From positions 1-64,000 of the forward strand of contig NZ_JAFRDR010000001.1 of assembly GCF_017377795.1 (NCBI RefSeq): a stretch of 64,000 nucleotides of DNA, in the 5' to 3' direction. The stretch's first letter is position 1. Every line of letters starts with the position of its first letter. Source of the stretch: Williamsia soli. GTDB taxonomy: Bacteria > Actinomycetota > Actinomycetes > Mycobacteriales > Mycobacteriaceae. Below are positions 14,159 to 32,943 of this stretch, piece after piece. The position numbers and the translations under genes are program-made. Under the pieces are notes generated by a model. That model did not search any database, was not told the origin of the DNA, and worked only from the letters and a program-made list of their open reading frames with translations.

Positions 14159-15229
14159 TTACCAGGCGAGGGTGGCAGCGAGACGTTCGCGATGGAGCGC
14201 GGTTCCGCCGAAGAGCTGGGCGTCGGCGCGGGCACGGCGGAAGTACAGGTGGCAGTGGTGTTCCCAGGTGAACCCGATACCACCATGGAGTTGCACGGCC
14301 TCGGCGCTGACAGTCCGGTAGGCATCGCTGCACCAGGCCTGAGCGAGCGCACCTGCCTCCACGAGATCGTCGGCCTCCACCGCCCGGGTGACCGCTGATC
14401 TGCTCGCCTCGACGAGCACCAGCAGGTCGGCGAGGGTGTGCTTGACGGCCTGGAAGCTGCCGATCTCGCGACCGAACTGCCGGCGTTCTCTCACGTACTC
14501 GACCGTCCGGTCGAGACTGGCCTGTGCCCCGCCGAGCTGTTCCGCGGCGAGGACGATGCAGGCGACATCGAGTGCGGGAAGTACTGCTGCAGTGGCAGTT
14601 CCACCGGTGGTCAGACGCGACCCGGAGACGTCGGTGAGTGTGATCGCCGCCTGGGCGCGGGACAGATCCAGAGTCTCGAGCGGAACGACGGCTACACCCG
14701 GCGCTGCCGACTCGACGATGAACACATCGGGACCCTCCGGGGTTTCAGCGGTGACCACCAGCCATCGCGCACCTGCGGCGCCGAGAACGGCGGGCGCGTG
14801 ACCGGTGAGGGTCAAGGAGCCGCCGTGGTCGGCCGCGGCGAACACCAGATCGTCTGGCGTCCACCACCCCTGCCGATTGAGTCCTGCGAACGCTGCGGGG
14901 GCTCCCTCGGCGATCTCGGAGAGAGCGTCGTCTGCACCGCCGGCGTTGACGAGTACCTGCCCCGCGACGACGGTCGACAGGAACGGCACGGGCAGCAGCG
15001 CGGCGCCGAGCTCCTCGGCGACCACAGCAAGTTCGGCCAATCCACCGAGTCCACCGCAGGATTCGGGGAGACCCAGCGCGCCGACGCCGATCTGTTCGGC
15101 CAAGACAGACCAGGCCATAGAATCCCAACCCGGGCCGGAGGTATCCAGCGAACGGCACAGGTCCGGGCCTCCGAGATCGGCCGCTGCAGAACGGACCGCG
15201 GCCCGCAGGTCGTCCAGTTCAGTACTCAT
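14159..15229 (-). CDS. Acyl-CoA dehydrogenase (smaller-subunit type)
   Basis: A 356-residue acyl-CoA dehydrogenase-family protein. It has VLAEQIGVGALGLPESCGG near the start, RRQFGREIGSFQAVKHTLAD in the middle and LHGGIGFTWEHHCHLYFRRA near the end. This composition is typical of the shorter partner of heteromeric actinobacterial enzymes. The ATG at 15229 overlaps the stop of the PPDK-like gene by four bases, so it is the third cistron of an operon read from 18395. Its likely partner is the convergent gene at 12900, which is on a different transcript, an arrangement that would link both operons' expression. Confidence 0.9.
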   Translation of the reverse strand: MSTELDDLRAAVRSAAADLGGPDLCRSLDTSGPGWDSMAWSVLAEQIGVGALGLPESCGGLGGLAELAVVAEELGAALLPVPFLSTVVAGQVLVNAGGADDALSEIAEGAPAAFAGLNRQGWWTPDDLVFAAADHGGSLTLTGHAPAVLGAAGARWLVVTAETPEGPDVFIVESAAPGVAVVPLETLDLSRAQAAITLTDVSGSRLTTGGTATAAVLPALDVACIVLAAEQLGGAQASLDRTVEYVRERRQFGREIGSFQAVKHTLADLLVLVEASRSAVTRAVEADDLVEAGALAQAWCSDAYRTVSAEAVQLHGGIGFTWEHHCHLYFRRARADAQLFGGTALHRERLAATLAW

Positions 15230-17772
15230 CGACCACTTTCGAGGGTTGCGTGTGCGGCGGCAAGACGTGCGACGGGAACCCGACGCGGCGAACACGAGAC
15301 GTAGTCGAGGCCGATGGAGTTGAGGAACGAGATCGACGCCGGGTCGCCGCCGTGTTCACCGCAGACCCCGAGCTTCACGCTCGGCCTGGCCTCGTGGGCC
15401 CGCTCTGCTGCCATGGCGACCAGCGCACCGACGCCGTCGGGGTCGAGGACGGCGAACGGGCTGTCGGTGAGCAACCCGTGGTCGAGATAGTGGGCAAGCA
15501 TGGTCTTTTCGACGTCGTCGCGCGAGAAACCGTAGGTCAACTGGGTCAGATCATTGGTTCCGAACGACAGGAACTCCGCGTCGGCGGTCAGTGACGCGGC
15601 GAGCAGGGCGGCGCGTGGGGTCTCGACCATGCTGCCCACCAGGTAGGGCACCTTGACGCCGGTGTCCGCGGCCACGGTCGCGGCTGCGCTGTCCACCTGT
15701 GTGATGGCCTTGCTGAGTTCACCGGGAAGCGAGACCAGGGGAATCATGACCTCGAGTATCGGCGAGATCCCCTCGGCGTTGACAGTCACCCAGGCGCGGA
15801 ACAGAGCTTCGGCCTGCGCCGGATACAGCCGTTGCTGGACCATCGCGAAGCGGACGCCGCGCAGGCCCAGCATCGGGTTGGATTCGTGTGTCTCCGCAGC
15901 CCTTTCGGCCTGGGCGGCATCGCGGTACTGGCCGTCGGCCGGCAAGAACTCGTGCAGCGGGGCGTCGAGTAGTCGCACGGTGATGGGGCGATTGCCGACC
16001 ACGCGCAAGAGATCGGTGAAGTCCGACTGTTGCGCGGTGGTCAGGGCTGCGATGGCCTCGATCTCCTCGGCCTCGCTCTCGGCGAGAACGAGACGCTGCA
16101 CCAACGGCAGCTGGTCGCCCATGAACTGATGTTCGGTGCGGCACAATCCGATTCCCTCGGCTCCGAGCCGGAATGCGGTGGCGGCGTCTTCAGCGTTGTC
16201 GGCGTTGGTGCGGATCCCGAGTTCACGGATCTCGTCGGCCCAGCCGAGCAGGATCTCGAGTTCGGGAGACGGTTCCGCAGGACGGATCGTCACGGCTCCG
16301 GTGTAGATGTCGCCGGTCCGTCCGTTGACAGAGACGACGTCGCCCTCGGACATGGTGACGCCGTTCGCGGTCACGGTGTGTGCGGTCAGGTCGATGCGCA
16401 ACGAGGTGGCACCGCAGACTGCCGGCCGTCCCGCGCCGCGCGCTACGACGGCGGCGTGGGAGGCGAGGCCGCCGTTGGAGGTGACGACTGCGGTCGCGGC
16501 GAGCAAGGCGGGTACATCGGCAGGACTGGTCTCGGATGCGACGAGGATGACGTCTTTGCCCTGCGCGGCCAACTGGAGGGCGCGTTCACTCGACAGAGCG
16601 ATCTCACCGATCGCGGCACCGGGAGATGCCGGCAGGCCCTGGGCGAGGAGTTGCTCGTTGCCGCTGAGCTTGAGCTGGGCATGGAGCAGGTCCTGCATGA
16701 GGTCCGGTTCGAGCATCCGTACGGCTTCACTGCGCTCGATCGAGTGGTTGTTCGCCAGATCGACGGCCAGGTTGGTGACGGCACGGGGTCCGGGATGTTC
16801 GCGGGCACCCGCGCTGAGGAGGGCGAGTTGCCGGTCGCGGACCTCGAACTCGACTTCTGCGACACCACGCAGGTGAGGTTCGAGGGTCGCAAAAATCTGA
16901 TCGAGGATCGAGACACCGCCGGGGACCTGGCCGAGAGGCTCGCCGGGTCCGGGATTGGGATCGGTCCGCCGGACGCCGAGATGGAAGACGCCATGCGGCG
17001 CGTATTTCCCGGTCTCCAGGTCGCGGCTGATCGCCGACCCGTAACCCGACTCGTTCCACGACCCCAGCCGCAGAGCACGGACGTGGAGCGCGATACCGAG
17101 ATCGTCGGGGAGTGACAGCGCTTTGCGGGCGCGCTGGCCGCGCGGGGAGGCCCAGCGGGCGAGCATCGCCTTCGCCGCGAGTCCGAGTTGCTCGGCCGGG
17201 TCGGCTGGGTAGGGAGCGCCTGTGGTCTCTTCGATGAGTTGCAGGAGGGCCGGGACCCGGGCGCGGCTGTCGGGGTGGTCGTCGTCGAGATCGTCGAGAT
17301 CATCCACGTCGACGTCCAGTGCGCCTTCGGCGACGAAGCGCAGATTCGCGGCCCAGGAGTCATAGATGTCGCGGTCGCGGCCGATGACTTCGACCAAGGC
17401 GTCGATGTTGCGGTTCGACAAACCGATGACCGAGATCGCGGGCGGCAGGGCGGACACCGGAACCGGTGCGCTGCAGCGGAGGTGCATCAGCATCGGACGC
17501 CGCTCGGTACGGGTGGCAGGCCAGATCCCGCGGACGGCGAGCTTCTCCACCAGGTCGATGGCGATGTTCGCGGTCTCCCGATTCTCGAGGCCGCTGCCGG
17601 ATCCGATCGGAACGGTCAGGCCCGGGACCACCGGGAGGCCGAGTGCGACCAGGTTGTCCATCTCGACGCCGTGAACTCCGAGCACATCGGCGCCGAGTCC
17701 ACGGGCGCGCCCCTGTCCGTAGGGGACCGCTGCGCGAGTGAAAGAGTGAACAGAGTTGTCGGACAGAGTCAT
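15226..17772 (-). CDS. Pyruvate phosphate dikinase-like protein with eroded ATP-grasp domain
   Basis: An 848-residue protein that aligns along the whole length of pyruvate phosphate dikinase. The central swivelling domain keeps its phospho-accepting His (GGLASHAAVVARG, His439). The C-terminal PEP/pyruvate barrel keeps GLCRTEH (about 543), VRLLDAPLHEF (about 599), FGTNDLTQLTYGFSRDD (about 737) and CGEHGG with Cys804. In contrast the N-terminal ATP-binding domain has lost key signatures: G-G-K-G-A-N-L reads GVHGVEM, the T-R-N-P-x-T-G-E stretch reads SRDLETGKY, and L-Q-T-R-N-G reads LLSAGA. ATP use as in true dikinases is therefore doubtful, while PEP-dependent His phosphorylation looks possible. 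The start at 17772 overlaps the upstream stop by four bases. Confidence 0.85.
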   Translation of the reverse strand: MTLSDNSVHSFTRAAVPYGQGRARGLGADVLGVHGVEMDNLVALGLPVVPGLTVPIGSGSGLENRETANIAIDLVEKLAVRGIWPATRTERRPMLMHLRCSAPVPVSALPPAISVIGLSNRNIDALVEVIGRDRDIYDSWAANLRFVAEGALDVDVDDLDDLDDDHPDSRARVPALLQLIEETTGAPYPADPAEQLGLAAKAMLARWASPRGQRARKALSLPDDLGIALHVRALRLGSWNESGYGSAISRDLETGKYAPHGVFHLGVRRTDPNPGPGEPLGQVPGGVSILDQIFATLEPHLRGVAEVEFEVRDRQLALLSAGAREHPGPRAVTNLAVDLANNHSIERSEAVRMLEPDLMQDLLHAQLKLSGNEQLLAQGLPASPGAAIGEIALSSERALQLAAQGKDVILVASETSPADVPALLAATAVVTSNGGLASHAAVVARGAGRPAVCGATSLRIDLTAHTVTANGVTMSEGDVVSVNGRTGDIYTGAVTIRPAEPSPELEILLGWADEIRELGIRTNADNAEDAATAFRLGAEGIGLCRTEHQFMGDQLPLVQRLVLAESEAEEIEAIAALTTAQQSDFTDLLRVVGNRPITVRLLDAPLHEFLPADGQYRDAAQAERAAETHESNPMLGLRGVRFAMVQQRLYPAQAEALFRAWVTVNAEGISPILEVMIPLVSLPGELSKAITQVDSAAATVAADTGVKVPYLVGSMVETPRAALLAASLTADAEFLSFGTNDLTQLTYGFSRDDVEKTMLAHYLDHGLLTDSPFAVLDPDGVGALVAMAAERAHEARPSVKLGVCGEHGGDPASISFLNSIGLDYVSCSPRRVPVARLAAAHATLESGR

Positions 17773-18395
17773 TCCGCGCTGCCAGTGACGAGCTTCTCTT
17801 CGAGGGCTTCGTCTTCGGCGCGCGTCACGCCCAGCATCATCAGCACGTGCTGGTGCAGCCACATCCAGACGGTGTGGTAGCCGTCCGTCAGCGGCGAGGT
17901 GAGGGATGCGGTGTCGCCGCTGTCGAAACGCTCGAGGGCGAGCGCGAGCTGATCCCGGTAGCCGAGGAGGGCTGAGGATTGCTTACCTGCCCGCCGGAGC
18001 ATCTTCGACACGTCGGTGTGGATGTCGTCGAGCTGGTCGCGGATCCGGGCGTCGTATTGCGCGTCCGAGTGATCGTTGACAGAGCCGTCCGGCCGGCACT
18101 GCCACGCGGTGCACAGCTCACGCAGGCGTCGGTTGACAGGAAGGAACGCGTGCAGGAAATCGTTGACGACTTTCTCTTCGTCGCTGCCCTCCGGCAATCG
18201 GACGAGTGCGCCGGCCGCGCTGATCCCGGCGGGGGTCGGCATCACCATCGGGCCCTTGGCGACCGCGTCCCCGGCGTCGATCACCATCTGCAGCTCGGGT
18301 GAGACCGGGCCGCGGAACATCCCTTTGACCACGAGACCGACCAGTTCGCTCGATGCGGTGGCCGATGTGGACGTGTTGATCGCGAGGTCGTTCAT
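17769..18395 (-). CDS. PPDK-associated helical protein, function unknown
   Basis: A 208-residue protein translated just ahead of the PPDK-like gene with a four-base overlap. The N-terminal 80 residues (ELVGLVVKGMFRGPVSPEL, then PAGISAAGALVRLP) could be a winged-helix-like fold. The C-terminal 120 residues are helical, with LPVNRRLRELCTAWQCRPDG, SVNDHSDAQYD and DGYHTVWMWLHQHVLMMLG. I recall similar helical proteins and domains next to PPDK-type genes in actinobacteria, but this is memory of the pattern, not a search. It probably binds or regulates the PPDK-like protein. It is the first gene of a three-cistron operon with the acyl-CoA dehydrogenase at 14159. Confidence 0.7.
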   Translation of the reverse strand: MNDLAINTSTSATASSELVGLVVKGMFRGPVSPELQMVIDAGDAVAKGPMVMPTPAGISAAGALVRLPEGSDEEKVVNDFLHAFLPVNRRLRELCTAWQCRPDGSVNDHSDAQYDARIRDQLDDIHTDVSKMLRRAGKQSSALLGYRDQLALALERFDSGDTASLTSPLTDGYHTVWMWLHQHVLMMLGVTRAEDEALEEKLVTGSAE

Positions 18396-18678
18396 GGTGC
18401 TCCTCGAATGGTTCTCGGGTCCCCGGGATCGGGGAGTGCGTCGGAGGTGACTGATGCACCACCTCGGCCGGGACTGTGACGGTGCTCATAACCTACCCAA
18501 ATAGTAGTGGATGTCAAGAAAGAGCCGCAAACTATGTACAGAATTATCCTCAGCCAGTTACTTGACAGTGCCTCCTCAAAGTCGGATACGCTACATGTGA
18601 CGACGACCACTCGGCTGAGCTGAGGTGACGTCATGGGCATACCCCGACCAGACGACAGACAACAGTGAGGCGCGGGCA
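18396..18678. promoter_or_regulatory. Divergent promoter region, PPDK-like operon / aldehyde dehydrogenase
   Basis: About 280 bases between divergent starts. It holds the AAACTATGTACAGAATT element, an AGTTACTTGACA stretch and a sigma-70-like promoter for the plus strand: TTGACA at 18563-18568, then a 17-base spacer and GATACG. The ribosome site for the aldehyde dehydrogenase is GTGAGG before the ATG at 18679. Confidence 0.5.
18529..18545. promoter_or_regulatory. ACTATGTACA operator-like element, copy 1
   Basis: AAACTATGTACAGAATT. The 12-base core ACTATGTACAGA is repeated exactly at 42422-42433. Its centre has the GT-AC core common in operators of FadR/FCD-type GntR regulators, and a GntR/FCD gene lies at 42560. 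It sits just upstream of the TTGACA box of the aldehyde dehydrogenase promoter. Confidence 0.5.
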
Positions 18679-20112
18679 ATGGAAGACCGGAACGAGCTCT
18701 ACATCGGCGGTAAGTGGGTTCCCTCCGCAGGTGACGCCACGATCGACGTCCTGGAGGCCGCCACCGGAGAGCTGATGGCCCGCGTCCCGGCGGGCACCGA
18801 GAGCGACGTCGACGACGCGGTCGCCGCGGCCAGAGCTGCGTTCGGTGAATGGTCGCAGTCCGCCGTCGCCGATCGGATCACCGTGCTGCGGCGGATCGCC
18901 GACGGTCTTCTCGAACGGGAGACCGAACTCGCCGAGATGATGGCCCGCGAAGTGGGCACACCGATCGCTCGTTCGCGCACGGTCCAGGTGGGGTTGGGAG
19001 TGACCATCTTCCGGTCGATGGCCGACATCCTGGAGACCACTCCCCTGGAGGAGCGGCGAGGGAACTCACTGATCCTCAAGGTCGGAGTGGGTGTGGTCGG
19101 TGCGATCACGCCCTGGAACTACCCGCTCTATCAACTCGCCGCGAAGGTCGCGCCGGCGATTGCCGCAGGATGCACGACCGTGGTCAAACCGAGCAGCGTG
19201 GCGCCCCTCGCGGCGTTCGTCGTCGCTGAGATCGCCGAAGAGGCCGGGTTGCCGCCGGGGGTCCTCAACATCGTGACCGGCGCGGGTGGCCGGGTCGGCG
19301 AGCGTCTCGCGGGTCATCCCGACGTCGATCTCGTCAGTCTCACCGGATCGACCTCTGCCGGCGCGAGAGTCGGCCAGGTAGCTGCAGCGGGCATCAAGAA
19401 AGTAACCCTCGAGCTCGGCGGTAAGTCGGCGTTCATCGTTGCGCCGGACGCCGACGTGGATGCGGCGGTCACAGCCGCCGTACGAGGTTGTTACGTCAAC
19501 AACGGACAGACCTGCGCCGCCACCACGCGGTTGCTGGTACCGGTCGGCAGGCTCGAGCAGGTCGAGGCCAAGCTGGTCGAACTCGTGGGGGGCCAGCGCG
19601 TCGGTGATCCATTGGACGAGGCGATCGACATCGGACCGATGGCGTCTCGTGAGCAACAGCAGACGGTCCTCGACATGCTCTCGGAAGTCCCCGCCGACGC
19701 AGTCTTCCTGGTCGGCGGGCCGGGTGAGGTCAGTGATCTCGACGAACGGCTCCGGTCAGGTTTCTTCGTCCGTCCGACGGTCGTGAGCCGCGTCGACAAC
19801 AACTCGGCCATCGCCCGCGACGAGGTGTTCGGGCCGGTGCTCACAGTTCTCACCTACGACGACATCGACGAGGCGATCGACATCGCCAACGACTCAGACT
19901 ACGGACTCTCCGGCGGCGTCTTCGCGGCCGATGACGACGGCGCGATCGCGATCGCGCGCCGACTGCGGACCGGTCAGGTGTCGATCAACGGCGGCCGGTT
20001 CAATGCGATGGCGCCCTTCGGTGGCATGAAGAAGTCGGGAATCGGCCGTGAACTCGGCCCGGACGGTTTGGACGAGTACTTCGAGAAGATCTCCCTTCAA
20101 CTACCCGCCTGA
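18679..20112 (+). CDS. NAD(P)-dependent aldehyde dehydrogenase
   Basis: A 477-residue aldehyde dehydrogenase that would oxidise an aldehyde to the acid. The catalytic Cys is in VNNGQTCAATTRLL and the general-base Glu in VTLELGGKSAFIV. The Rossmann fold has LVSLTGSTSAGARVG, and APWN-type ITPWNYPLYQLAAKVAPA is at about residue 150. The ATG at 18679 follows GTGAGG and gives the standard family start (ELYIGGKWV); the frame is open 18 codons further. A SnoaL-like gene follows after 30 bases. It could oxidise the product of the aldolase-like enzyme at 11732 (inference). Confidence 0.94.
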   Translation: MEDRNELYIGGKWVPSAGDATIDVLEAATGELMARVPAGTESDVDDAVAAARAAFGEWSQSAVADRITVLRRIADGLLERETELAEMMAREVGTPIARSRTVQVGLGVTIFRSMADILETTPLEERRGNSLILKVGVGVVGAITPWNYPLYQLAAKVAPAIAAGCTTVVKPSSVAPLAAFVVAEIAEEAGLPPGVLNIVTGAGGRVGERLAGHPDVDLVSLTGSTSAGARVGQVAAAGIKKVTLELGGKSAFIVAPDADVDAAVTAAVRGCYVNNGQTCAATTRLLVPVGRLEQVEAKLVELVGGQRVGDPLDEAIDIGPMASREQQQTVLDMLSEVPADAVFLVGGPGEVSDLDERLRSGFFVRPTVVSRVDNNSAIARDEVFGPVLTVLTYDDIDEAIDIANDSDYGLSGGVFAADDDGAIAIARRLRTGQVSINGGRFNAMAPFGGMKKSGIGRELGPDGLDEYFEKISLQLPA

Positions 20113-20142
20113 CCCGCCCCACAACGACGAAAGCGATCCGAC

Positions 20143-20631
20143 ATGGCCACGGAAGCAGAACTGAACACCGCGCACAGGGAGATCACCAACCTGATGTCGC
20201 GCTTCTCGCGCGGTATCGACCTGCGGGACTGGGACATGTACCGGTCGGTGTTCACCGACGAGATCGAGATCGACTACACCAGCTATCGGGCCGGCAACGG
20301 CGGGATCTTCCGCGCCGAGGACTGGGTGCAACGCGGGCGGATGCTGTTCCCGGGGCTGACGGCGTCACAGCACTTCCTGTCGAATCTGCACATCACGGTC
20401 GAGGGTGATCGCGGCACGGTGATCTCGTATGTCCGCGCCGAACACGTACTCCCGAACACGGCAGGTGACGCGATGTTCACCATCGGCGGGTACTACACCG
20501 ATTCCGTTGTGCACTCGGATGGTGAGTGGAAGATCTGCAAGAAGCAGCTGACCGTGCTGTGGAACTCCGGCAACCCTGCGGTCCTGACCATGGCGCGCGA
20601 ACGCGCGGCAGCACTGCTCGCGGACGCCTGA
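20143..20631 (+). CDS. SnoaL-like / NTF2-fold protein
   Basis: A 162-residue protein of the SnoaL_4-type cone-shaped NTF2 fold. HREITNLMSRFSRGIDLRDW is the usual N-terminal helix, followed by MYRSVFTDEIEIDYT, SQHFLSNLHITVEGDRGTVI and VVHSDGEWKICKKQLTVLW. Family members act as isomerases, dehydratases or hydrolase-like enzymes on hydrophobic ring compounds, or as ligand-binding proteins. It lies 30 bases after the aldehyde dehydrogenase and is convergent with the VOC gene. Together these imply small cyclic substrates, but the reaction cannot be assigned. Confidence 0.85.
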   Translation: MATEAELNTAHREITNLMSRFSRGIDLRDWDMYRSVFTDEIEIDYTSYRAGNGGIFRAEDWVQRGRMLFPGLTASQHFLSNLHITVEGDRGTVISYVRAEHVLPNTAGDAMFTIGGYYTDSVVHSDGEWKICKKQLTVLWNSGNPAVLTMARERAAALLADA

Positions 20632-20655
20632 GGCTCCGGCGCTCATTCGGAGCGT

Positions 20656-21437: not shown

Positions 21438-22961
21438 ATGACAGACGCGCTCAGTATCAGCGGTCTTTCCAAGACTTTCGGCGGTCAGCGAGCACTCAAT
21501 GATGTGACTCTCGTCCTCGCACCCGGTGAAATTCGCGGTTTGGTCGGACAGAACGGATGCGGAAAATCCACACTCATCAAAGTTCTTGCCGGATACCATG
21601 ATCCGGACGACGGAGCAAAGATCGTCGTCGCAGGTAGCGAACTGAACCTCGGTGTCCCCGGGAGTGGAGAAGCAGCCGGGCTGCGCTTCGTACATCAGGA
21701 GCTGGGGCTGGTGGAAAGCCTCGACGTCGTCGACAACCTGGCTCTCGGACACGGCTACCAGACCAGGTCCATCGGCACGATCGACTTCAAGGCCGAACGC
21801 GCGCAGGCCAAGGCGGCCCTCGCCGAACTGGGCTTCGACATCGATCTCAAGAAGCTCGCGTCCGCACTGAGCATGAGCGAACGAACGATGCTTGCGATCG
21901 CCCGCGCCGTACAGGATCGGTCGGGCGCGACGAACATCCTGGTTCTCGACGAGCCGACCGCGAACCTACCTGCAGCCGAGGCTGTTCGGCTCTTCGACCT
22001 GGTTCGCAGGATCCGGGACCGCGGAGTGGCGGTGCTCTTCGTCTCGCATCACCTGGGCGAGGTCTTCTCGCTGTGCGACAGCGTGACGGTCATGCGCGAC
22101 GGCAACATCGTCACCACCCGCAGCCTGGAAGGGCTCGACGAGCCGGGACTCGTGGAACTCATGATCGGCCGCCGAGTCGAAGAGTTCCTCGCCGAACCCG
22201 ACGAGACGACCGACACCGCGGGAGATCCTGTCCTCGAGGTGCGTGGGTTCTCCTGCGGTGCCGTGAAAGACTTCGACTTCTCGATCCGATCGGGCGAGGT
22301 GCTCGGGATCGCCGGGATCACCGGGTCGGGCCGCGAGCAGATCGTGCCCGCACTCTTCGGTGCCGAGACCAGAGGTGGCACTGTTGTTGTCGACGGCAAG
22401 ACGGTGGAGGACGGACGTCCCGACCTCGCGATGGCAGCGGGGGTGGGTTGTGTGCCGGCCGAGCGGCTGAGCAACGCCGCCTTCGCCACCGCCTCCCTTC
22501 GTGAGAACGTCTCGGTCGCCGACCCCTGGGCTTACACCAAAGGTGGCATGCTGCGGATCAAGCGTGAGAAGTCCGACGTCGCAACATGGCTCGAGAAGCT
22601 CGGAGTGCGGCCCTCCGGCAACACCGAACGCCATCTCGGCACCCTCAGTGGTGGCAACCAGCAGAAGGTGGTGCTGGCCCGATGGCTGCGCCGCAAACCT
22701 CGCGTACTCCTGCTCGACGAGCCCACCCAGGGTGTCGACATCGGCGCGAAGGCCGACATCCACACGCTGGTCGACGACGCCGCACAATCCGGGGCCGCAG
22801 TGCTGGTGGTCTCCACCGATCACGGCGAACTCACCCGCCTCTGCGATCGCGTGATCGTGCTGTCGGCCGGCTGCGTGGTCGACGATCTCTCCCGCCCTCG
22901 GATCGACCCCGACCGGTTGACCGCCTCGACTCTCAAGAAGCCAGCTCGCGCCGAGGCCTGA
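21438..22961 (+). CDS. Ribose-type (CUT2) ABC importer, ATP-binding protein with two NBDs
   Basis: A 507-residue protein with two fused nucleotide-binding domains, the RbsA/XylG architecture. Domain 1 has Walker A GQNGCGKSTLIK, an atypical signature LSMSERTMLAIARA and Walker B ILVLDEPTANL. Domain 2 has a degenerate Walker A (GITGSGREQIV), as usual in this family, and an intact signature LSGGNQQKVVLARWL with LLLDEPTQGVDIG. It energises uptake of a sugar-like or polyol-like compound with the permease at 22991 and the binding protein at 24123. It is the first gene of the plus-strand operon reaching 28251. Confidence 0.93.
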   Translation: MTDALSISGLSKTFGGQRALNDVTLVLAPGEIRGLVGQNGCGKSTLIKVLAGYHDPDDGAKIVVAGSELNLGVPGSGEAAGLRFVHQELGLVESLDVVDNLALGHGYQTRSIGTIDFKAERAQAKAALAELGFDIDLKKLASALSMSERTMLAIARAVQDRSGATNILVLDEPTANLPAAEAVRLFDLVRRIRDRGVAVLFVSHHLGEVFSLCDSVTVMRDGNIVTTRSLEGLDEPGLVELMIGRRVEEFLAEPDETTDTAGDPVLEVRGFSCGAVKDFDFSIRSGEVLGIAGITGSGREQIVPALFGAETRGGTVVVDGKTVEDGRPDLAMAAGVGCVPAERLSNAAFATASLRENVSVADPWAYTKGGMLRIKREKSDVATWLEKLGVRPSGNTERHLGTLSGGNQQKVVLARWLRRKPRVLLLDEPTQGVDIGAKADIHTLVDDAAQSGAAVLVVSTDHGELTRLCDRVIVLSAGCVVDDLSRPRIDPDRLTASTLKKPARAEA

Positions 22962-22990
22962 GCCCCCGTGCTATGTGCGAAAGGAACACC

Positions 22991-24019
22991 ATGACAACAC
23001 AATCGACCGACGCCGCGGCGACAGCCCCGAAGGGCCCGCCCCCGGGCGGCGGAGACTTCCTCCCGGAGAAGACCAAGGGACGCAAGATCAACCTCGGTCT
23101 CGACCGTTTCAGCGGACTGTACGTATGGGTCGCCATCATCGTGCTGTTCGCCATCTGGATTCCCGACCTGTTCCTGACCGAGGGCAACTTCCGCATCATC
23201 GCGGGCGATCAGGCCATCACCGCGATGCTGGCGATCGGCCTGATCGTGCCGCTCGCGGCAGGAGTCTTCGACCTCTCGATCGCGGGGGTGATGGGGTTCT
23301 CCGTGGCGATGGTGTCGTACCAACTCTCGCAGGGAATCGCAGCACCGATCGCGATCCTCAGCACCCTGCTGTGTGGCGCTCTCATCGGTGCGGTGAACGG
23401 CTTCGTGGTGGTCAAGCTCAACGTCGACTCGTTCATCGCAACCCTTGGTATGTCCAGCATCCTGCTGGCAGGTACCTATTTCGTGACAGACGGTAAGCAG
23501 ATCACCGAAGGCTTCACCGACGGATTCCTGGACATGGGTAGCAAGCCGTTCCTGGGACTGCCCCTTCCGTTCTTCTACATGATCGCCGTCGCGGCGGTGA
23601 TGTACGTGGTGCTGGAGAAGACACCCCTGGGCCGCTACCTCTACGCGACCGGCGGAAACCGCCAGGCAGCACGGCTCGCCGGTCTCCGGGTCGAGCGAAT
23701 CATGTTCGGCGCCTTGGTCACATCGGCCACTGTTGCTGCGCTGACGGGTGTGATCTTGGCTGCGAAGCTGGGTACCGCAGCACCCGACATCGGGCCCTCC
23801 TATCTGCTCCCGGCGTTCTCGGCGGTCTTCCTGGGTTCGACGCAGATCCGCGCCGGCCGGGTGAACGTCCTCGGAACGCTCATCGCGATCTACCTGCTGG
23901 CCACCGGTGTCAAGGGTCTGCAGCTCGCCGGGGCTCCGAGTTACGTCAACGACCTCTTCAACGGCCTGGCGCTGATCATCGCCGTCGCACTCGCCGCACG
24001 CACCGCTCGACGCGTGTGA
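22991..24019 (+). CDS. Ribose-type (CUT2) ABC importer, permease
   Basis: A 342-residue polytopic membrane protein of the RbsC family (BPD_transp_2). It has a 45-residue polar N-terminus, then about eight to ten hydrophobic segments, such as LYVWVAIIVLFAIWIPDLFL, MLAIGLIVPLAAGVFDLSIA and FYMIAVAAVMYVVL. The family motif around GRYLYATGGNRQAARLAGL is intact. GAAAGGAACACC precedes the ATG at 22991. A longer open frame overlaps the ATPase gene but is not credible. The protein forms the transmembrane channel with the two-domain ATPase upstream. Confidence 0.92.
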   Translation: MTTQSTDAAATAPKGPPPGGGDFLPEKTKGRKINLGLDRFSGLYVWVAIIVLFAIWIPDLFLTEGNFRIIAGDQAITAMLAIGLIVPLAAGVFDLSIAGVMGFSVAMVSYQLSQGIAAPIAILSTLLCGALIGAVNGFVVVKLNVDSFIATLGMSSILLAGTYFVTDGKQITEGFTDGFLDMGSKPFLGLPLPFFYMIAVAAVMYVVLEKTPLGRYLYATGGNRQAARLAGLRVERIMFGALVTSATVAALTGVILAAKLGTAAPDIGPSYLLPAFSAVFLGSTQIRAGRVNVLGTLIAIYLLATGVKGLQLAGAPSYVNDLFNGLALIIAVALAARTARRV

Positions 24020-24122
24020 GCATCTCCACGATCAACGACCATTCCCTCTGTGACCCCTTCCAGCTCAAGCATCTACTTCAGTCAATGGCTCTGCAGAGAG
24101 CCAACACCCGAGAGGAATCCCA

Positions 24123-25247
24123 GTGAAGACAACCCGATGGACAAAGGCGTTCGTCGCCGTGGTCGCCGCGAGTCTGTTCGCGACAGCGTGTAGCAGCTCT
24201 GACGATGGGGGCACCGGCCAAGCGGCCGACGTGTCCGGTGCGCAGGCGGTGGCAGACCAGTACGAGGCGGCACCGACGAATCTCGTTCTCGACACGCCGT
24301 TGAGCAAGGCTCCCGCAGCGGGCAAGTATGTCATCAGTATCGAGACACCCCAACCGATCTCGAGCGCCAAGGACGATGCGATCCAGCAAGCGGCCGACTT
24401 GCTGGGCTGGCGCTATCAGCGCATTCTGATGGGAACCGACGCCGAAGCGGCCCCGAAGGCCATGGATCAGGCCATCGCACTGAAGCCGGACGCCATCCAC
24501 TTCTCGGGCACACCCGTGTCGATGCTGGCGAAGCAGATCGAATCGGCCAAGAACGCCGGCATCGTCGTGATCGCCGACAGTGTTGGTGACGAACCCATTC
24601 CGGGTGTCATCTCCACGTCACTCGACGGCACCGCTCAGGTCCAGGAGTGGGGCAAGATGGTCGCCAGCCAGGTCGTGGCCGAGAGCGAAGGCGACGCCAA
24701 CGTCGCGGTCTTCTCCATCACCGACTACCCGATCCTGAATGTGTTCACCGACGCGTTCACCGCGCAGATGAAGGCGCAGTGCCCGGATTGCAAGGTGGAT
24801 CTGGTCAATCAGCAGGTGACCGATCTGGGCACCAAGACCCCGCAAAGCGTGGTCAGTACCCTGCAGCGCGATCCGTCCATCAACTACGCGGTCTTCTCCT
24901 TCGGAGACCTCGTGCTCGGTGTGGACGCCGCCCTGCGCGGTGCCGGACTGCAGGACCAGGTGACCTTCGCGGGTCAGACCCCCACCCCGGACAACCTGAA
25001 GTCGCTCAAAGACGGGGACAACAGCGTCTGGGTCGGGTTCCCGGTACAGATCCTGGGGTGGCGCGTGCTGGACATGCTCGCCCGCGAGTTCAACGGTGAC
25101 GACCTGAAGCCTGCCGACGACGCATTCCTGCCTACCCAGTTGCTCAACAAGGACAACATCGAGGCAGCGGTGCTGGACCCGGAAACCGGCTTCTACGTGG
25201 GTGTCGAGGACTACCAAGACCAGTTCAAGGCCCTGTGGCTCAAGTAA
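24123..25247 (+). CDS. ABC importer substrate-binding lipoprotein (periplasmic-binding type 1)
   Basis: A 374-residue binding protein. The N-terminus has a positively charged n-region, a hydrophobic core and a lipobox-like LFATAC, with Cys22 as the likely lipidation site, followed by a Ser/Asp/Gly-rich linker. The mature part fits the sugar-binding Peripla_BP_4 fold (AMDQAIALKPDAIHFSG, AKNAGIVVIADSVGDEPIPG, VDAALRGAGLQDQVTFAGQT). It delivers the substrate to the permease at 22991. A strong stem-loop lies just after the stop codon, which commonly raises binding-protein output over downstream genes. Confidence 0.92.
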   Translation: MKTTRWTKAFVAVVAASLFATACSSSDDGGTGQAADVSGAQAVADQYEAAPTNLVLDTPLSKAPAAGKYVISIETPQPISSAKDDAIQQAADLLGWRYQRILMGTDAEAAPKAMDQAIALKPDAIHFSGTPVSMLAKQIESAKNAGIVVIADSVGDEPIPGVISTSLDGTAQVQEWGKMVASQVVAESEGDANVAVFSITDYPILNVFTDAFTAQMKAQCPDCKVDLVNQQVTDLGTKTPQSVVSTLQRDPSINYAVFSFGDLVLGVDAALRGAGLQDQVTFAGQTPTPDNLKSLKDGDNSVWVGFPVQILGWRVLDMLAREFNGDDLKPADDAFLPTQLLNKDNIEAAVLDPETGFYVGVEDYQDQFKALWLK

Positions 25248-28251: not shown

Positions 28252-28274
28252 TCCGTGCCTGCGGTCGGGCAGGC

Positions 28275-28383
28275 ACCGTCGACCGTGCCTTTACAACCGT
28301 CGACCGTGCCTTACCGACCATCGAGCGTGCCAAAGTTGTGAAACTTCGGCACGCTCGACGGCGTTATCGGCACGCTCGGCGGG
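28275..28383. repeat. Array of 21-base intergenic repeats, three forward and two inverted
   Basis: Three forward units start at 28275, 28296 and 28317, exactly 21 bases apart. The first two share ACCGTCGACCGTGCCTT and the third reads ACCATCGAGCGTGCCAA. Two reverse-complement units follow at 28348 and 28369, again 21 bases apart, reading GGCACGCTCGACGG and GGCACGCTCGGCGG. The array fills the gap between convergent genes. Confidence 0.8.
28321..28358. terminator. Bidirectional terminator hairpin between convergent operons
   Basis: TCGAGCGTGCC pairs with GGCACGCTCGA (11 pairs), then after one A/C mismatch AAGTT pairs with AACTT around a GTGA loop. It is formed by the meeting of a forward and an inverted unit of the repeat array, and lies between the stops at 28251 and 28387. 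Confidence 0.75.
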
Positions 28384-28386
28384 AGG

Positions 28387-29157
28387 TCAGGCGGGTGCGG
28401 GAATCGGGATCGTTTGCCCGCTGCCGCAGGTCGCTCCGCCGTCGACGGGTATCGCTGCTCCCGTGACGAACGACGCCAGGGGTGAGGCCAGGAAGGCGAT
28501 GACCTCCCCGACCTCACGGGCGGTCCCCCACCGTTGCAGAGGGACCATCGACGCGAGCGACTGATACCGCTCCGGGGTGTTCTCTTCGATGCGTTTGGTC
28601 ATGCCGGTACTGATCGGACCGGGGCAGACGGTGTTGACCCGGATCTTGTCGTTCGCGAGATCGATGGCGAACGAACGCGCCAGGTTGACCACGCCTGCCT
28701 TCGCGGCGGCATAAGGCCAGCGATTGGGTTCGCCTCCCATCGCAGTCGCGGATGCGGTGATGACCACCGAGCCGCCACCGTTGCGCCGGAACGCCGGAAT
28801 CGATTCGCGCACACCGAGCGCCACAGCGCGCAGGTTGACGTTGATCGAGCGGTCGAAGACCTCCATGTCGAGGGTCTCGATGGATCCGGAGGCCGGTACG
28901 CCGGCATTGAGGATCAAGGCATCGAGCCGGCCGAACGACTCCTCGGCGAGCTCGATGGCGGCGCGGTTGTCGACATCGCAGGTGACGTCGCCGACGAACG
29001 GCACCGCGCTGTCGTTGCCCGCCAACCAATCCAGCGACTCCGAGGTCATATCGAAGGCGACCACCGACCCGCCGCGCTCGAGAATGATCTCGACGGCGGC
29101 CCGGCCGATACCGGACGCCGCGCCAGTGACAACAGCAACAATGCCCCTCTCCGTCAT
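28387..29157 (-). CDS. Short-chain dehydrogenase/reductase
   Basis: A 256-residue classical SDR. The cofactor motif is VVTGAASGIGRAAVE, the structural N-A-G is in LILNAGVPASG and the catalytic Ser, Tyr and Lys are in ITASATAMGG and WPYAAAKAGVVNLA. The C-terminal ITGA-type element reads FVTGAAIPVDGG. It is the last gene of a four-gene minus-strand operon with four-base overlaps, after the zinc alcohol dehydrogenase. It would interconvert a secondary alcohol and ketone or act on a ring substituent. Confidence 0.92.
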   Translation of the reverse strand: MTERGIVAVVTGAASGIGRAAVEIILERGGSVVAFDMTSESLDWLAGNDSAVPFVGDVTCDVDNRAAIELAEESFGRLDALILNAGVPASGSIETLDMEVFDRSINVNLRAVALGVRESIPAFRRNGGGSVVITASATAMGGEPNRWPYAAAKAGVVNLARSFAIDLANDKIRVNTVCPGPISTGMTKRIEENTPERYQSLASMVPLQRWGTAREVGEVIAFLASPLASFVTGAAIPVDGGATCGSGQTIPIPAPA

Positions 29158-30260
29158 TGTGATGAGGCCATCTCGATGATCGCGCGCCCGATGATCTCAC
29201 CGCGGGCCAGCGCCTGATACGCCTCGTCGGCTTGATCCAGCGTGTACCGGCGGGTGATGACGCGTTCGGGCTCGACGATCCCGCCTGAGACCAGGCGAAG
29301 CAGGGCAGGCATGTCCGTGCGGGCCTTGGCGCCGTAGGAACCGTGGATCTCCAGCTTGCGCCGGACCAGTCGGGCCAGGTCGATCTCTCCCACGCTGCCA
29401 GCGGGTGCGATACCGACCACTACTGCCCGGCCGCCGTCGTCGAGGATGTCCAGTGCGGTGGCGAAGGTGTGTTTGTTGCCGAGGGCCTCGAACGCGACGT
29501 CGACCCCGTGACCGTCGGTGAGGGCCTTGACCTCGGCGACCACGTCGGTGTCCCGGGAATTGATGGTGTGGGTGGCACCGAGTGCCGCAACGGCTTTCAG
29601 CTTCTCGTCGTCGATGTCGATCGCGATGATCTGCGAAACGCCGGACGCGACCGCGAACTGCACGATCGACGATCCGACCCCACCGGCTGCGATGACCGCG
29701 ATCCGGTCGCCCAGGACGAGTTCGGCGTTGTTGATCGCACCGAGTGCGGTGAACGAGCTGCAACCGAGGATCGAGACCTCACCGAGACCGACTCCTTCGG
29801 GAACCTTGAAGGCGTCGGATGCGGGCACGACGCAGTATTCGGCCAGTCCTCCCATGGAGTACATCGCCAGTGGCGTACCGTCTTCGCGGCCCAGTCGCGT
29901 CTCGCCGTCATAGAGAGTGCCGTTCAAGCGGTTGTGCGCGAAAAACTTCTCGCAGAGGTCCTCTTTGCCGCTGACGCAGTGCCGGCAATCGCCGCACGGC
30001 ATGATGAAGCTACAGACGACGCGATCGCCGACGGCGACGTTGTCCACTCCTTCGCCGGTCTGCTCGACGACACCGGACACTTCGTGACCGAGTACTGCCG
30101 GGACCGGGAACTTGACCTCGGACTTGAGCACATGCAGGTCGGTGTGGCAGACGCCGCAGGCGGTCACCTTCAGCAGGATCTCGCCGCGCCGGGGCTCGGG
30201 CCGTGGGATGTCTTCGATCGTCAGCGACGGGCTGGTGCCGTCGAATACTGCTGCCTTCAC
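29154..30260 (-). CDS. Zinc-dependent medium-chain alcohol dehydrogenase
   Basis: A 368-residue MDR enzyme. Catalytic-zinc ligands are in VTACGVCHTDLHVLK and VLGHEVSG; the structural lobe is MPCGDCRHCVSGKEDLCEKF with four Cys. The NAD-binding fold is IAVIAAGGVGSSIVQFAVAS. It overlaps its neighbours on both sides by four bases (30257-30260 and 29154-29157). It differs clearly in sequence from the zinc enzyme at 27178, so they are likely to act on different steps rather than being recent duplicates. Confidence 0.92.
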   Translation of the reverse strand: MKAAVFDGTSPSLTIEDIPRPEPRRGEILLKVTACGVCHTDLHVLKSEVKFPVPAVLGHEVSGVVEQTGEGVDNVAVGDRVVCSFIMPCGDCRHCVSGKEDLCEKFFAHNRLNGTLYDGETRLGREDGTPLAMYSMGGLAEYCVVPASDAFKVPEGVGLGEVSILGCSSFTALGAINNAELVLGDRIAVIAAGGVGSSIVQFAVASGVSQIIAIDIDDEKLKAVAALGATHTINSRDTDVVAEVKALTDGHGVDVAFEALGNKHTFATALDILDDGGRAVVVGIAPAGSVGEIDLARLVRRKLEIHGSYGAKARTDMPALLRLVSGGIVEPERVITRRYTLDQADEAYQALARGEIIGRAIIEMASSQ

Positions 30261-31204
30261 AACACACTCGCTTTCGAAATGTCGGTCGAGAGTTCTTCGG
30301 CGGTCTCGAGTAGCGAGGCCAGCCGGGCCGGCGCCTCCGCCCAGTCCCGGGTGGATCGCATCTCGTCCCAGAAGTTTATCTCCACGATGAACTGCTCGGC
30401 CCCCGCTGCGACCGCGGTACGGAGATCGCCGCGGACACCCTCGATGCCGTGTCCGCCGGAGCCGACGGCGTCGGTGGGCCGCTGCAGATAGGAGCGCAGG
30501 AACAATCGGACCGGTGCAGCATCATCGGCACGCAGCCCCGCCATCGTGTCGAGTTGTTGCTGCAAGGCCTCCACGGTCCCGCTGCTGGGGTTCCAGATGT
30601 CGAACAGTGCTGCGGTGCGGGCCAATCCGGCCACCGATCGCAAACCGGACAGCAGTGGCGGGTGTGGTTGCTGCAGCGGTTTAGGGCGGATCACCGACCG
30701 CGGGATGGAGAAGAACTCCCCGGAGAACTCGACCGGATCGGGACCCCAACAGGCCTGCACCGCGTTGACGAGTTCGCTCATCCGTCGACCACGCGTGCGC
30801 GGGTCGACGTCCATCTGGCTGTGCTCCTCGTCGGACCAGCCTGCCCCGAGGCCCGCGACGAGTCGGCCGCCCGACAGTACATCGAGCGTCGAAAGACGTT
30901 GCGCCAGTTCGACCGGACGGTGGTAGCCCGCGACGAGGATGCTGCTGCCGATCATCGCCTTCTCGGTACAGGCGGCGACAAAGGCCATCAGCTCGGTGGC
31001 CCCGAGTACCGAGCGGTACGCGGGGTGGACGCTGGTGGTGTGCCGTCCGCCGTAGATCGACTCGTTCGCCTCCGGGTAGAACAGGTGCTCCTGCACCCAC
31101 AAGCTGGCGAAGCCGAGTTCTTCGGCCGAGGTCGCGAAGGCCCGGATCGCACCGGCGTCGACATGTTCACCGAGCTGCGGGAGGGTCAGACCGATCTCGA
31201 CCAC
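30257..31204 (-). CDS. Luciferase-like, probably F420-dependent oxidoreductase
   Basis: A 315-residue luciferase-like oxidoreductase. It starts VVEIGLTLPQLGEHVDAGAI (GTG start) and has LWVQEHLFYPEANESIYGG and GGRLVAGLGAGWSDEEH. RPKPLQQPHPPLLSGL is in the substrate-binding region. The GTG at 31204 shares its first base with the TAG stop of the upstream gene (TAGTG), so translation is tightly coupled. The open frame extends 121 codons upstream inside the PEP-utilizing gene but that part is not protein-like. Second of two such enzymes in the block. Confidence 0.88.
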   Translation of the reverse strand: MVEIGLTLPQLGEHVDAGAIRAFATSAEELGFASLWVQEHLFYPEANESIYGGRHTTSVHPAYRSVLGATELMAFVAACTEKAMIGSSILVAGYHRPVELAQRLSTLDVLSGGRLVAGLGAGWSDEEHSQMDVDPRTRGRRMSELVNAVQACWGPDPVEFSGEFFSIPRSVIRPKPLQQPHPPLLSGLRSVAGLARTAALFDIWNPSSGTVEALQQQLDTMAGLRADDAAPVRLFLRSYLQRPTDAVGSGGHGIEGVRGDLRTAVAAGAEQFIVEINFWDEMRSTRDWAEAPARLASLLETAEELSTDISKASVL

Positions 31205-32943
31205 TAGAGCACCGTCACTGTTCCGGTGTTGCCGTCTACCTCGACCATCGCACCGTCGGGGATGCGCGCGGTGGCATCCTGCACCGACACCGCGCAGGGA
31301 ATTCCCAATTCGCGACAGACGATGGACGAGTGCGTGATGGTCGAGCCCACGTTGACCACGACGCCGCCTGCGAAGACGAACAACGGAGTCCAGGCCGGAT
31401 CCGTCTGGGGCGCAATGATGATGTCGCCCTCTTCGAGGTGCTCGGCGTCGTAGGGATCGTGCAGGATCCGGGCGCGGCCGCGGCTCACACCGGGTGCCCC
31501 GGACACCCCGGCGATGGATTCGCCGGGGACGGCGATCTGTGCTTTGTGCTCGGTCCGCTTGGGCCACTGCGACAGCGGCAGCGGCTCGAACAGGAAGAAC
31601 GGAGGCTCGAGGTCGAACAGTGCGAGATACTGCTCGCGCCGTTGCGCGATGGTCTCCTTGAAGGACTCGGGATCGGCAGCGAAGGCGTCCAGTTCATCGG
31701 CGAGCAGCATCGTGACGTCGTGGTGGTCTTCCATGACCCCTCGCGCGACCATCCGGTGGCCCAATTCGTAAAGGGCTGTGCGCATCTCACCCATCACCTT
31801 CACGCAGGCGGTCTTGGTGCGCTCTCGCCACGGCATGAACCGGGTGATCGACTTCGCGGCGTCGAGGAAGCTCTGTCGCGTCTGTTCGTCGGGCATCTTG
31901 GCTGCGAGTTCGGCGGTCAGGGCGATTCGCTTCGTCTCGTTGCGCTGCCGGATCAGCTCGGGGTCGGAAGAGTCCGGACTCAACCGCATCCCATTGATCG
32001 CGAGCAGGGCGAGAACAGGCTTCGACTCCCAGCTGTCCGAACGGATGTCCCATTCGTTGGGCGCGCGCGAACCGTATTTGTAGAGGAAGTCGTCGAAGTC
32101 CGTCCGGAACTGCTTGGCGTCGGGGGAGCCGCTCGCGTCTACGGCGTCGAGCAGGGTGGCGAGGCCGTTGTCGAACAGCGCGGTCAACTCGTCGGAGCCC
32201 GCAACCAACCGGCCCATGTTCCACAGTGCGAACGACGGTGCGGCCGAATCGACACCACCGAGACCGCTGAGCAGGTCGCCGAGTTTGTCGGCTTCACCGA
32301 TCGATGCCAGCAGGGCGCCCGCGACCGCAGGTCCGACGGTCGAGAGTGTGGTGGTCACCGGGTGGTAGGCGTAGCAGAAGATCAGGTCGGGGACGAATGA
32401 CCGTGCGTGATCGACCAACTGCTGATCGTTCAGCGTGTTCAGGTCAGGCCGGTTCGCCCGGGCCTGGTCGGCCCGTCGCTTGGTCTCCTCCGCCTCGGGG
32501 AACTCGTCCGTTGTCAGAGCCCAGGCGCTCTTCTCCGCTAGACGCGCGGTGAGTTCTGCGTTGGCGTGGCCGGGCTTTTCCACGTAGTCGGGAAGGTCCG
32601 GGTGGTCGCCGACCCACAACCGGTTCCATTCCGGAACGGTCATTCCGGGCAGGCGGGCACCGTTGAGTTCGGTCGCCGAGAAGTTCGTGAAGTGGTAGCC
32701 ACCGAAGTTGCCGAGCGTCTCGGGCATCACCTCGTCGAGCTCCGACGCCAGGTGGGTGCCGAGATGCTCGACGTATCCCTCACGCCAGCCGATGTTGAGG
32801 CCCTTGTTCCAGACGAGGCTGACATTCAGGGGACTCGACGGGTCCGGCAGCACCTCTCCCGCGTTGGCACGCGTGTACACGGGGTACCGCTCGCTGTACT
32901 CCCAGTCGGTGATCCAGCTGTCGGCGTTTTGCTCGTTGCTCAC
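31204..32943 (-). CDS. PEP-utilizing-type protein: acceptor-like and His domains, no ATP-grasp
   Basis: A 579-residue protein related to the second half of rifampin phosphotransferase and PEP-synthase-type enzymes. TRANAGEVLPDPSSPL near residue 25 and YKYGSRAPNEWDIRSDSWE near 289 are typical of the acceptor-binding part. The C-terminal swivelling domain (about 490-579) keeps the phospho-His motif NVGSTITHSSIVCRELGIPC (His538). The N-terminal ATP-grasp domain of full-length relatives is absent, and there is no PEP barrel. The GTG start at 32943 follows AGGAGG at five bases, fixing the N-terminus. It leads a four-gene operon with oxidoreductases. It may be one half of a split phosphotransferase. 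Confidence 0.8.
   Translation of the reverse strand: MSNEQNADSWITDWEYSERYPVYTRANAGEVLPDPSSPLNVSLVWNKGLNIGWREGYVEHLGTHLASELDEVMPETLGNFGGYHFTNFSATELNGARLPGMTVPEWNRLWVGDHPDLPDYVEKPGHANAELTARLAEKSAWALTTDEFPEAEETKRRADQARANRPDLNTLNDQQLVDHARSFVPDLIFCYAYHPVTTTLSTVGPAVAGALLASIGEADKLGDLLSGLGGVDSAAPSFALWNMGRLVAGSDELTALFDNGLATLLDAVDASGSPDAKQFRTDFDDFLYKYGSRAPNEWDIRSDSWESKPVLALLAINGMRLSPDSSDPELIRQRNETKRIALTAELAAKMPDEQTRQSFLDAAKSITRFMPWRERTKTACVKVMGEMRTALYELGHRMVARGVMEDHHDVTMLLADELDAFAADPESFKETIAQRREQYLALFDLEPPFFLFEPLPLSQWPKRTEHKAQIAVPGESIAGVSGAPGVSRGRARILHDPYDAEHLEEGDIIIAPQTDPAWTPLFVFAGGVVVNVGSTITHSSIVCRELGIPCAVSVQDATARIPDGAMVEVDGNTGTVTVL

Follow-up and report, generated by a model that had tools for sequence, protein, structure and literature searches.

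A conserved trio of a PPDK-like protein with a PEP site, a kinase half without ATP-grasp and a helical partner in Williamsia soli: a probable PEP-driven phosphotransferase

Where does a kinase half that has no ATP-grasp domain obtain its phosphate? The question is raised by a gene cluster in the first 64,000 nucleotides of contig NZ_JAFRDR010000001.1 of Williamsia soli (assembly GCF_017377795.1), the whole of which is referred to here as the window. The source genome (G000) is that of a high-GC actinobacterium of 6.07 Mb. The window encodes a protein resembling pyruvate, phosphate dikinase (PPDK), named P0001, with a conserved site for phosphoenolpyruvate (PEP) and an ATP site that has lost residues. 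It also encodes a helical protein, P0003, beside P0001, and a receiver-like protein, P0002, that joins a substrate-binding half to a swivel domain. We propose, from sequence conservation and gene distribution, that the three probably constitute a PEP-driven phosphotransferase for a small molecule. The putative donor and its parts are as follows:
15226..17772, minus strand: P0001, PPDK-like donor protein of 848 amino acids (Pfam, NCBIfam, alignment, AlphaFold model)
16717..17733, minus strand: pseudo-ATP-grasp domain, P0001 residues 14-352, its fold present in the model and its nucleotide residues lost
16456..16458, minus strand: codon of the phospho-histidine H439 in the swivel domain, motif GGLASHAAVVARG
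15238..16215, minus strand: PEP-binding barrel, P0001 residues 520-845, with all catalytic residues that were checked present

P0001 likely starts at the ATG at 17772, which gives the 848-residue form used for the numbering of H439; a GTG at 17862 merely extends the frame. Among named records, Williamsia sp. 1135 came closest (99%) to the part of P0001 used as query. Pfam matched the swivel and PEP-barrel domains of P0001 and gave no match to PPDK_N. The protein stayed below the NCBIfam cut-offs both for pyruvate, phosphate dikinase (TIGR01828; 678.6 against 843.45) and for enzyme I of the sugar phosphotransferase system (PTS) (TIGR01417; 116.2 bits against 341.7). An AlphaFold model made with a 46-row alignment as input (predicted local distance difference test, pLDDT, 82.4) matched maize PPDK (5jvj_A) over its whole length with a template-modelling (TM) score of 0.81, so that in the model the ATP-grasp fold seems to be still present.

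The ATP and PEP sites were compared across 46 P0001-type rows, namely the window protein plus one from each of 45 loci, out of the 56 whose P0001 frame is intact (see below). The comparison set held 25 ordinary PPDKs and 15 short PPDK relatives, of which one is plasmid-borne and 14 come from loci where a distant homologue of P0003 is encoded nearby. Site numbers follow what we take to be the numbering of C. symbiosum PPDK. The K22 position is a histidine and the Q335 position an alanine or serine in all 46 P0001-type rows; R337 is gone from all of them, and the D321 position is an aspartate in none. The glycine of the SGA loop has become serine in 45 of 46 rows, R92 is retained in nine, and the E323 position holds glutamate in nine and aspartate in 33. 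A preliminary description of this DNA had stated that the ATP-grasp motifs of P0001 are lost, which stands for K22, Q335 and R337. It had also credited the protein with a phospho-histidine, His439, and the PEP-side motifs of PPDK, and this is borne out: the histidine occurs in 46/46 rows, as do all seven PEP-side or histidine sites checked (His455, R561, R617, E745, N768, D769 and C831).

Ordinary PPDKs retain every checked ATP and PEP site (25/25). The short PPDKs are of the type of VadK (Rv1127c), a shortened PPDK whose His422 is autophosphorylated with ATP according to passages of its description (PMC13400623), which also mention full-length PPDK without kinase motifs in some mycobacteria. 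All 15 retain the ATP residues and the histidine and lack the barrel; D321 is D in 10, E in 4 and Y in 1. Since P0001 has lost ATP residues and kept the barrel while the short PPDKs show the opposite, the two appear as mirror images of one another. An ordinary PPDK was set aside as the identity of P0001 on the loss of ATP residues in 46/46 rows, and in a tree P0001 and ordinary PPDKs form separate clades, with the VadK-type proteins unplaced. What P0001 shares with PPDK is the modelled fold over the whole length, the phospho-histidine and the PEP residues checked; it differs in its lost ATP residues, in scoring below the family cut-off and in being conserved with two partner proteins. The pseudo-ATP-grasp domain has conserved residues of its own in the alignment (G32, H34, G35, M38 and D39, among others), which suggests that it is retained for some use.

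The putative receiver is encoded on the same strand of the window:
31204..32979, minus strand: P0002, substrate-binding half plus swivel domain, 591 amino acids (579 from the start at 32943)
31330..31332, minus strand: codon of the swivel histidine of P0002, H550 of 591 (H538 of 579)

Pfam found the swivel domain in P0002, and neither Pfam nor NCBIfam matched an ATP-grasp or a PEP barrel, in agreement with the initial reading of the letters. Its best PDB match was rifampin phosphotransferase (E 2e-33), with residues 292-591 of P0002 aligned to the drug-binding and swivel half of that enzyme. Rifampin phosphotransferase, however, is one chain with its own ATP-grasp. The phospho-histidine that had been placed at His538 is correct for the 579-residue form, and a histidine occupies this position in 17 of the 17 receiver rows that cover it (19 were aligned; one of the 17 is a fused ATP-grasp protein, L008). 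P0002 is thus, as judged from these matches, the substrate and swivel half of a kinase of the rifampin-phosphotransferase/HpeH type, without the ATP-grasp. HpeHI is described, in passages of its report (PMC12167813), as an ATP-dependent two-component kinase in which the ATP-grasp is on HpeI and the substrate and swivel domains are on HpeH, with CreHI and PpsAB (phenylphosphate synthase) as relatives. P0002 has the layout of HpeH and PpsA, a substrate half followed by a C-terminal swivel with the catalytic histidine and no ATP-grasp, a likeness that rests on the published description of HpeH; these systems, like the trio, are set in a catabolic cluster. In contrast to the trio, they have a separate ATP-grasp partner (HpeI, CreI or PpsB). 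None was found in the source genome, where the PPDK-like P0001, its PEP site live and its ATP site dead, would instead serve as donor, and where the predicted chain adds a P0003-type adaptor and has two swivel histidines.

The third gene overlaps P0001:
17769..18395, minus strand: P0003, helical partner of 208 amino acids, its stop (17769) sharing 4 bases with the P0001 start; family shared with proteins beside VadK-type donors

In order to see how the three genes are distributed, we searched 298 genomes of the window's order with P0001, P0002 and P0003. P0003 matched in 56 genomes, P0002 in 217 (in the rows listed mostly over the swivel with some of the substrate half) and P0001 in 285, the listed matches other than the orthologues reaching at most 44% identity. 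Close P0001 orthologues (57-83%) were found in five genomes besides the source (G160, G161, G149, G029 and G215). In all five P0003 is close in sequence (47-79%) and adjacent, and a P0002-type gene of full length lies within about 20 kb on the contig of P0001. Outside the P0001-bearing genomes of this sample, a full-length P0002-type match occurs only in G184 and G247.

A scan of named genomes with the pseudo-ATP-grasp domain yielded 57 loci, 56 of them with an intact P0001 frame; five of the 57 come from genomes that are also in the 298-genome sample, and the two sets of counts overlap. The loci span Williamsia, Rhodococcus/Rhodococcoides, Streptomyces, Lentzea and Goekera, and include an Aeromicrobium metagenome-assembled genome (MAG), two further MAGs and one record filed as Kitasatospora. 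P0003 adjoins P0001 in 56/56 loci with the intact frame, in line with the earlier suggestion that the helical protein is a third part. P0002 was sought in 50 genomes of the 57 loci, picked through P0001, and a full-length P0002-type gene was present in every one. In 47 of the 50 the genes for P0003 and P0002 are on one contig, separated by 9.2-21.9 kb (mostly 13-14 kb, median 13.8 kb); in G313, G314 and G338 they are on separate contigs of draft assemblies. The co-occurrence of P0001 and P0002, proposed as a check on the first reading, was therefore found both in these 50 genomes and in all five order-sample relatives, which rules out that their link is a chance of one window. P0001, P0002 and P0003 belong together as a trio.

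The locus filed under Kitasatospora (L196, K. arboriphila NRRL B-24581, a 5.7-Mb genome) is 90% identical to that of the window, and the record is perhaps a mislabelled Williamsia.

Neither Pfam nor NCBIfam matched P0003 at E 0.1, and its comparison with PDB sequences returned a single chance-level row (E 1.1). P0003 was modelled as well as P0001; Foldseek gave nothing at E 0.001, with weak rows that included PadR, and VIA-align listed mostly helical bundles, possibly just a common arrangement. Across the family, His181, His174, His109 and Trp98/Trp177 are conserved. Homologues of P0003 also occur near ATP-type donors, including 13 genomes of one genus (g2). The family name Rv1126c used for these relatives is taken from the VadK report (PMC13400623) and set beside P0003 by description. 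VadK with Rv1126c thus resembles P0001 with P0003 in pairing a PPDK-derived donor bearing a phospho-histidine with a protein of this family, but in VadK the ATP-grasp is retained and the PEP barrel absent, the reverse of P0001. In G144 (L053:6573-11310), a P0003-type gene lies between a small acyl-carrier-like protein, recognized by eye, and two swivel-bearing frames; this is a different arrangement of the same parts.

The chain that we favor would run as follows. The barrel of P0001 would move phosphate from PEP to His439, as its fully conserved PEP site suggests. Recharging of P0001 by ATP would be impossible because its ATP-grasp has become a pseudo-domain, which now probably serves as a docking surface. 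From His439 the phosphate would pass to the swivel histidine H550 of P0002. The swivel would then turn to the protein's own substrate half and phosphorylate a catabolic intermediate, by analogy with HpeH and rifampin phosphotransferase. The strict co-conservation of P0003 points to an obligatory adaptor that couples donor and receiver. P0001 would act like PTS enzyme I, with a PEP barrel charging a swivel histidine that hands its phosphate to another protein; unlike enzyme I, it is a PPDK by sequence, and its receiver would be a substrate-binding kinase half and not HPr. If this is true, bacteria would possess, in addition to the sugar PTS, a phosphotransfer chain of a second kind that is fed by PEP, made of PPDK parts and activating a catabolic intermediate. 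The preliminary description knew of no described system of this kind. That holds for the PEP-charged version, of which we found no description in the open-access literature searched (most subscription papers being outside that scope). It does not hold for half of the system, which is published, as passages on HpeHI (PMC12167813) and on VadK with Rv1126c (PMC13400623) indicate.

Several observations weigh against this proposal. Two swivel histidines in series are unusual for this enzyme class, and the swivel motif of the window's P0002 is degenerate around its histidine (VGSTITHSS for GGxxxHxx). P0001 and P0002 are encoded in separate operons, with a gap of 9-22 kb between P0003 and P0002. The window's P0001 itself retains R92 and E323 of the ATP site, so that the loss of ATP residues is not total in this one protein, and its pseudo-ATP-grasp domain could bind another nucleotide. 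Furthermore, 44 of the 50 trio genomes have at least one PPDK_N gene, and the Pfam model for this domain (PF01326) misses P0001 too, so that a strongly altered ATP-grasp could escape the search. The source genome also holds other possible donors, namely a fused ATP-grasp protein on contig C18 and a 584-amino-acid swivel protein on C3, the latter resembling PTS enzyme I by eye. Finally, contig C16 of G302, a genome with several such gene sets (see below), carries a donor and P0003-type pair with no P0002-type gene listed on that contig.

Four other explanations were weighed against the proposed chain. It is doubtful that the P0002 swivel docks directly on the PEP barrel of P0001, with the P0001 swivel as a spectator. 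The HpeH swivel is indeed thought to dock straight on HpeI in the passages cited (PMC12167813), but H439 and its motif are retained in 46/46 rows. In addition, G247 has a free PPDK-type swivel, a swivel-only frame of 206 amino acids (L124:8708-9325), directly upstream of its P0002-type gene, with no barrel or ATP-grasp match there. Elsewhere in this genome an ATP-grasp-only frame stands beside a P0003-type gene (L061:10282-11037), and a short donor seems to have been split in two.

We consider it unlikely that P0001 and P0003 form a regulatory protein kinase that senses the PEP/pyruvate ratio and acts, for example, on the E1/E2 complex encoded nearby, with P0002 a mere neighbor in the pathway. 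Such a role would recall VadK, which is proposed in passages of its report as a regulator of the methylcitrate cycle (PMC13400623), and genes of the E1/E2 type lie near P0001 in 52/57 loci. However, receivers that have a swivel histidine and no ATP-grasp track the donors, both the PEP type (50/50) and the ATP type (13/13 donor-positive genomes of genus g2).

In a third explanation, P0002 would be an ordinary HpeH-type kinase half with its ATP-grasp partner encoded elsewhere, and P0001 would have another role in the pathway. HpeHI, CreHI and PpsAB use such a partner, as far as passages of PMC12167813 describe them, and a PPDK_N gene of some kind is what the 44 genomes mentioned above have to offer. 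The remaining six trio genomes gave no PF01326 match (G303, G307, G308, G309, G310 and G315). One of them, G307, is identical to the G160 record; its completeness is rated at 100%, and it carries two genes of the P0002 type. In the source genome no stand-alone ATP-grasp partner was found, the only PPDK_N protein being the fused one of 792 amino acids on C18, another contig than that of the trio. Together with the presence of P0002 in 50/50 genomes that have P0001, this makes the explanation very unlikely, and a hidden ATP-grasp partner was set aside on the six genomes without a match, one of them 100% complete. Of the two routes first suggested, transfer from PEP through His439 to the substrate of P0002 accordingly fits better than an ATP-grasp in trans.

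Highly improbable is a reverse chain from a phosphorylated catabolite through P0002 and P0001 to pyruvate, yielding PEP: PPDK-type barrels run in both directions, but the phosphate of an ordinary alcohol ester is far lower in energy than that of PEP, so that it would have to come from an enol or acyl phosphate, and there is no sign of one. In its favor, HpeH alone transferred phosphate from 4-phosphoacetophenone to acetovanillone, as reported in the passages on this enzyme (PMC12167813).

Returning to the PEP-driven trio, the system looks modular with exchangeable donors, because its receiver and adaptor families accompany an ATP-charged VadK-type donor elsewhere. G302 is a natural experiment in donor exchange: it carries three sets of donor, P0003-type and P0002-type genes (L297, L298-L299), one of the PEP type on C26 and two of the ATP type on two other contigs. 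In G184, an ATP-type donor and a P0003-type gene lie 8-9 kb from the P0002-type gene. A plasmid of R. pyridinivorans holds an ATP-type set consisting of a short PPDK, a P0003-type protein annotated as 'MarR' and a P0002-type protein annotated as 'PEP-utilizing enzyme'. Five Rhodococcus plasmids have a P0002-type match of full length, and each of the five has in addition a donor-like match (90-97% query coverage, 48.8-100% identity; ATP residues were read in the R. pyridinivorans donor only) and a P0003-type match. The donor adjoins the P0003-type match in four of them and is 5 kb away in the fifth. The best-listed donor and P0002-type places are within about 35 kb in four plasmids and far apart in CP130956. 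If this modularity is real, the energy source of a kinase would be swappable by exchanging one protein, with adaptor and receiver unchanged.

A plasmid of Methylibium petroleiphilum PM1, a betaproteobacterium, has a PPDK-type match (H66) and a P0003-type 'MarR' match (H111; 26%, E 2e-9) about 28 kb apart, which suggests that parts of the trio may reach beyond actinobacteria.

The generality of the modular reading was followed in 58 P0003-family loci besides the window and the plasmid, in stretches of up to 10 kb on each side, with ATP residues read in 15 donors and the remaining donors judged by profile. Part of this survey speaks against it. In 13 of the 58 loci there is no PPDK-type N-terminal domain (two of the 13 have a swivel match only), and among the 40 ATP-type loci six match weakly, L159 with a weak barrel match as well. 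A receiver lies in the same stretch in only 5/40 ATP-type loci. Distant receivers were sought in the 298 genomes, with P0002 (up to four candidates scored per genome) and with the fused family NF004520, a reductase-like/receiver family that corresponds to M. tuberculosis Rv2047c, an assignment consistent with PMC7058343.

Should a receiver that lacks an ATP-grasp depend on a donor derived from PPDK, the two would be expected to occur together in other settings as well. At E 1e-60, NF004520 matched in 12/298 genomes, all 12 among the 56 with P0003, and the proteins (L277-L287 of genus g2, and others) showed no ATP-grasp match. Among the 34 genomes of genus g2 it is present in 11, all of them within the 13 that have an ATP-type donor near P0003; the hypergeometric chance of this overlap is 2.7e-7, uncorrected for kinship. 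In the remaining two of these 13 genomes the receiver does not belong to NF004520; it is stand-alone in one (L288) and beside the donor in the other (L151). Four strong P0002 matches in donor-negative genomes of the genus all have their own ATP-grasp. The distribution of NF004520 supports, and does not prove, the rule that receivers without ATP-grasp need a PPDK-derived donor.

It is possible, then, that a VadK-type protein is the phosphate donor of the Rv2047c-type enzyme. In passages of a transposon study, rv1127c, rv2047c and pks12 have similar conditional profiles, being non-essential with carboxymycobactin, hemin or hemoglobin and essential or causing a growth defect with mycobactin (PMC7058343). 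Because several other genes share this profile (mmpL5, mmpS5, mmpL11, rv0455c and murI; PMC7058343), it is weak evidence by itself. Passages of a later paper hypothesize that the reductase-receiver fusion reduces and phosphorylates the Pks12 product and name no phosphate donor (PMC11574752); in the part of a 2012 review consulted, the enzyme that phosphorylates this product is given as not identified (PMC3318773). In the VadK paper, a word search for Rv2047c in the main text found nothing, and the interaction table lists methylcitrate enzymes (PMC13400623).

Taken further, these parts may belong to a wide, unrecognised class of modular phosphotransfer chains in bacteria, each with a PPDK-derived donor (charged by ATP as in VadK or by PEP as in P0001), a P0003/Rv1126c adaptor and a receiver that has substrate and swivel domains and no ATP-grasp, either stand-alone or fused to a reductase-like domain. 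Mycobacterial VadK would then primarily be the donor for the Rv2047c-type enzyme encoded next to pks12, and the phosphate of phosphomycoketide would come from it; in the Williamsia/Streptomyces version the chain would have switched from ATP to PEP as a second PEP-driven chain beside the PTS. We put this forward tentatively, as a serious possibility that is somewhat less than an even prospect. The PEP-driven chain of the trio, if real, would also give the unassigned P0003/Rv1126c family a role and make testable both what VadK-type proteins phosphorylate and where receivers without ATP-grasp get their phosphate.

The genes around the trio bear on what the receiver might phosphorylate. Neighbors in the window, with counts that refer to the stretches fetched for the 57 loci, are:
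5462..6118, minus strand: histidine-phosphatase-superfamily protein, recurring in part of the related clusters
6088..7632, minus strand: acyl-CoA/AMP ligase-like protein, named by eye, with relatives in the clusters of five order-sample genomes and of Streptomyces coeruleorubidus
7764..11326, plus strand: 2-oxoacid-dehydrogenase-type E1 alpha, E1 beta and E2 genes, one or more of them in 52/57 loci
11334..12883, plus strand: small zinc-ribbon/OB-fold-like and thiolase-like proteins, named by eye, a relative of the thiolase-like one in 53/57 loci
12900..14150, plus strand: acyl-CoA dehydrogenase 1, a relative in 13/57 loci
14159..15295, minus strand: acyl-CoA dehydrogenase 2, a relative in 56/57 loci

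Five of the 57 loci, including those of Williamsia muralis, have no E1/E2 gene in the fetched stretches, and four have no thiolase-like gene there. Genes for a ribose-type ABC importer, recognized by eye, occupy positions 21438-25247 of the window; relatives of its ATPase (40%) and of its binding protein (33%) occur in the cluster of S. coeruleorubidus (L294, 9948-12637). Pfam identified two Rieske oxygenases in G029, with homologues in other clusters. The coenzyme A (CoA)-ligase-like, acyl-CoA dehydrogenase, thiolase-like, E1/E2 and Rieske genes, together with the importer, point to catabolism. The cluster fits the breakdown of an imported compound, and the ABC importer may carry the substrate of the pathway.

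The source genome has a second P0002-type gene on contig C2 (L010:9033-10757, 574 amino acids), whose neighbors, judged by eye and from their similarity to G160, resemble SDR, ThuA, TetR and phosphatase genes. In G160 the counterparts of these four lie in the same cluster as P0001, and the P0001 cluster seems to be split in the source genome.

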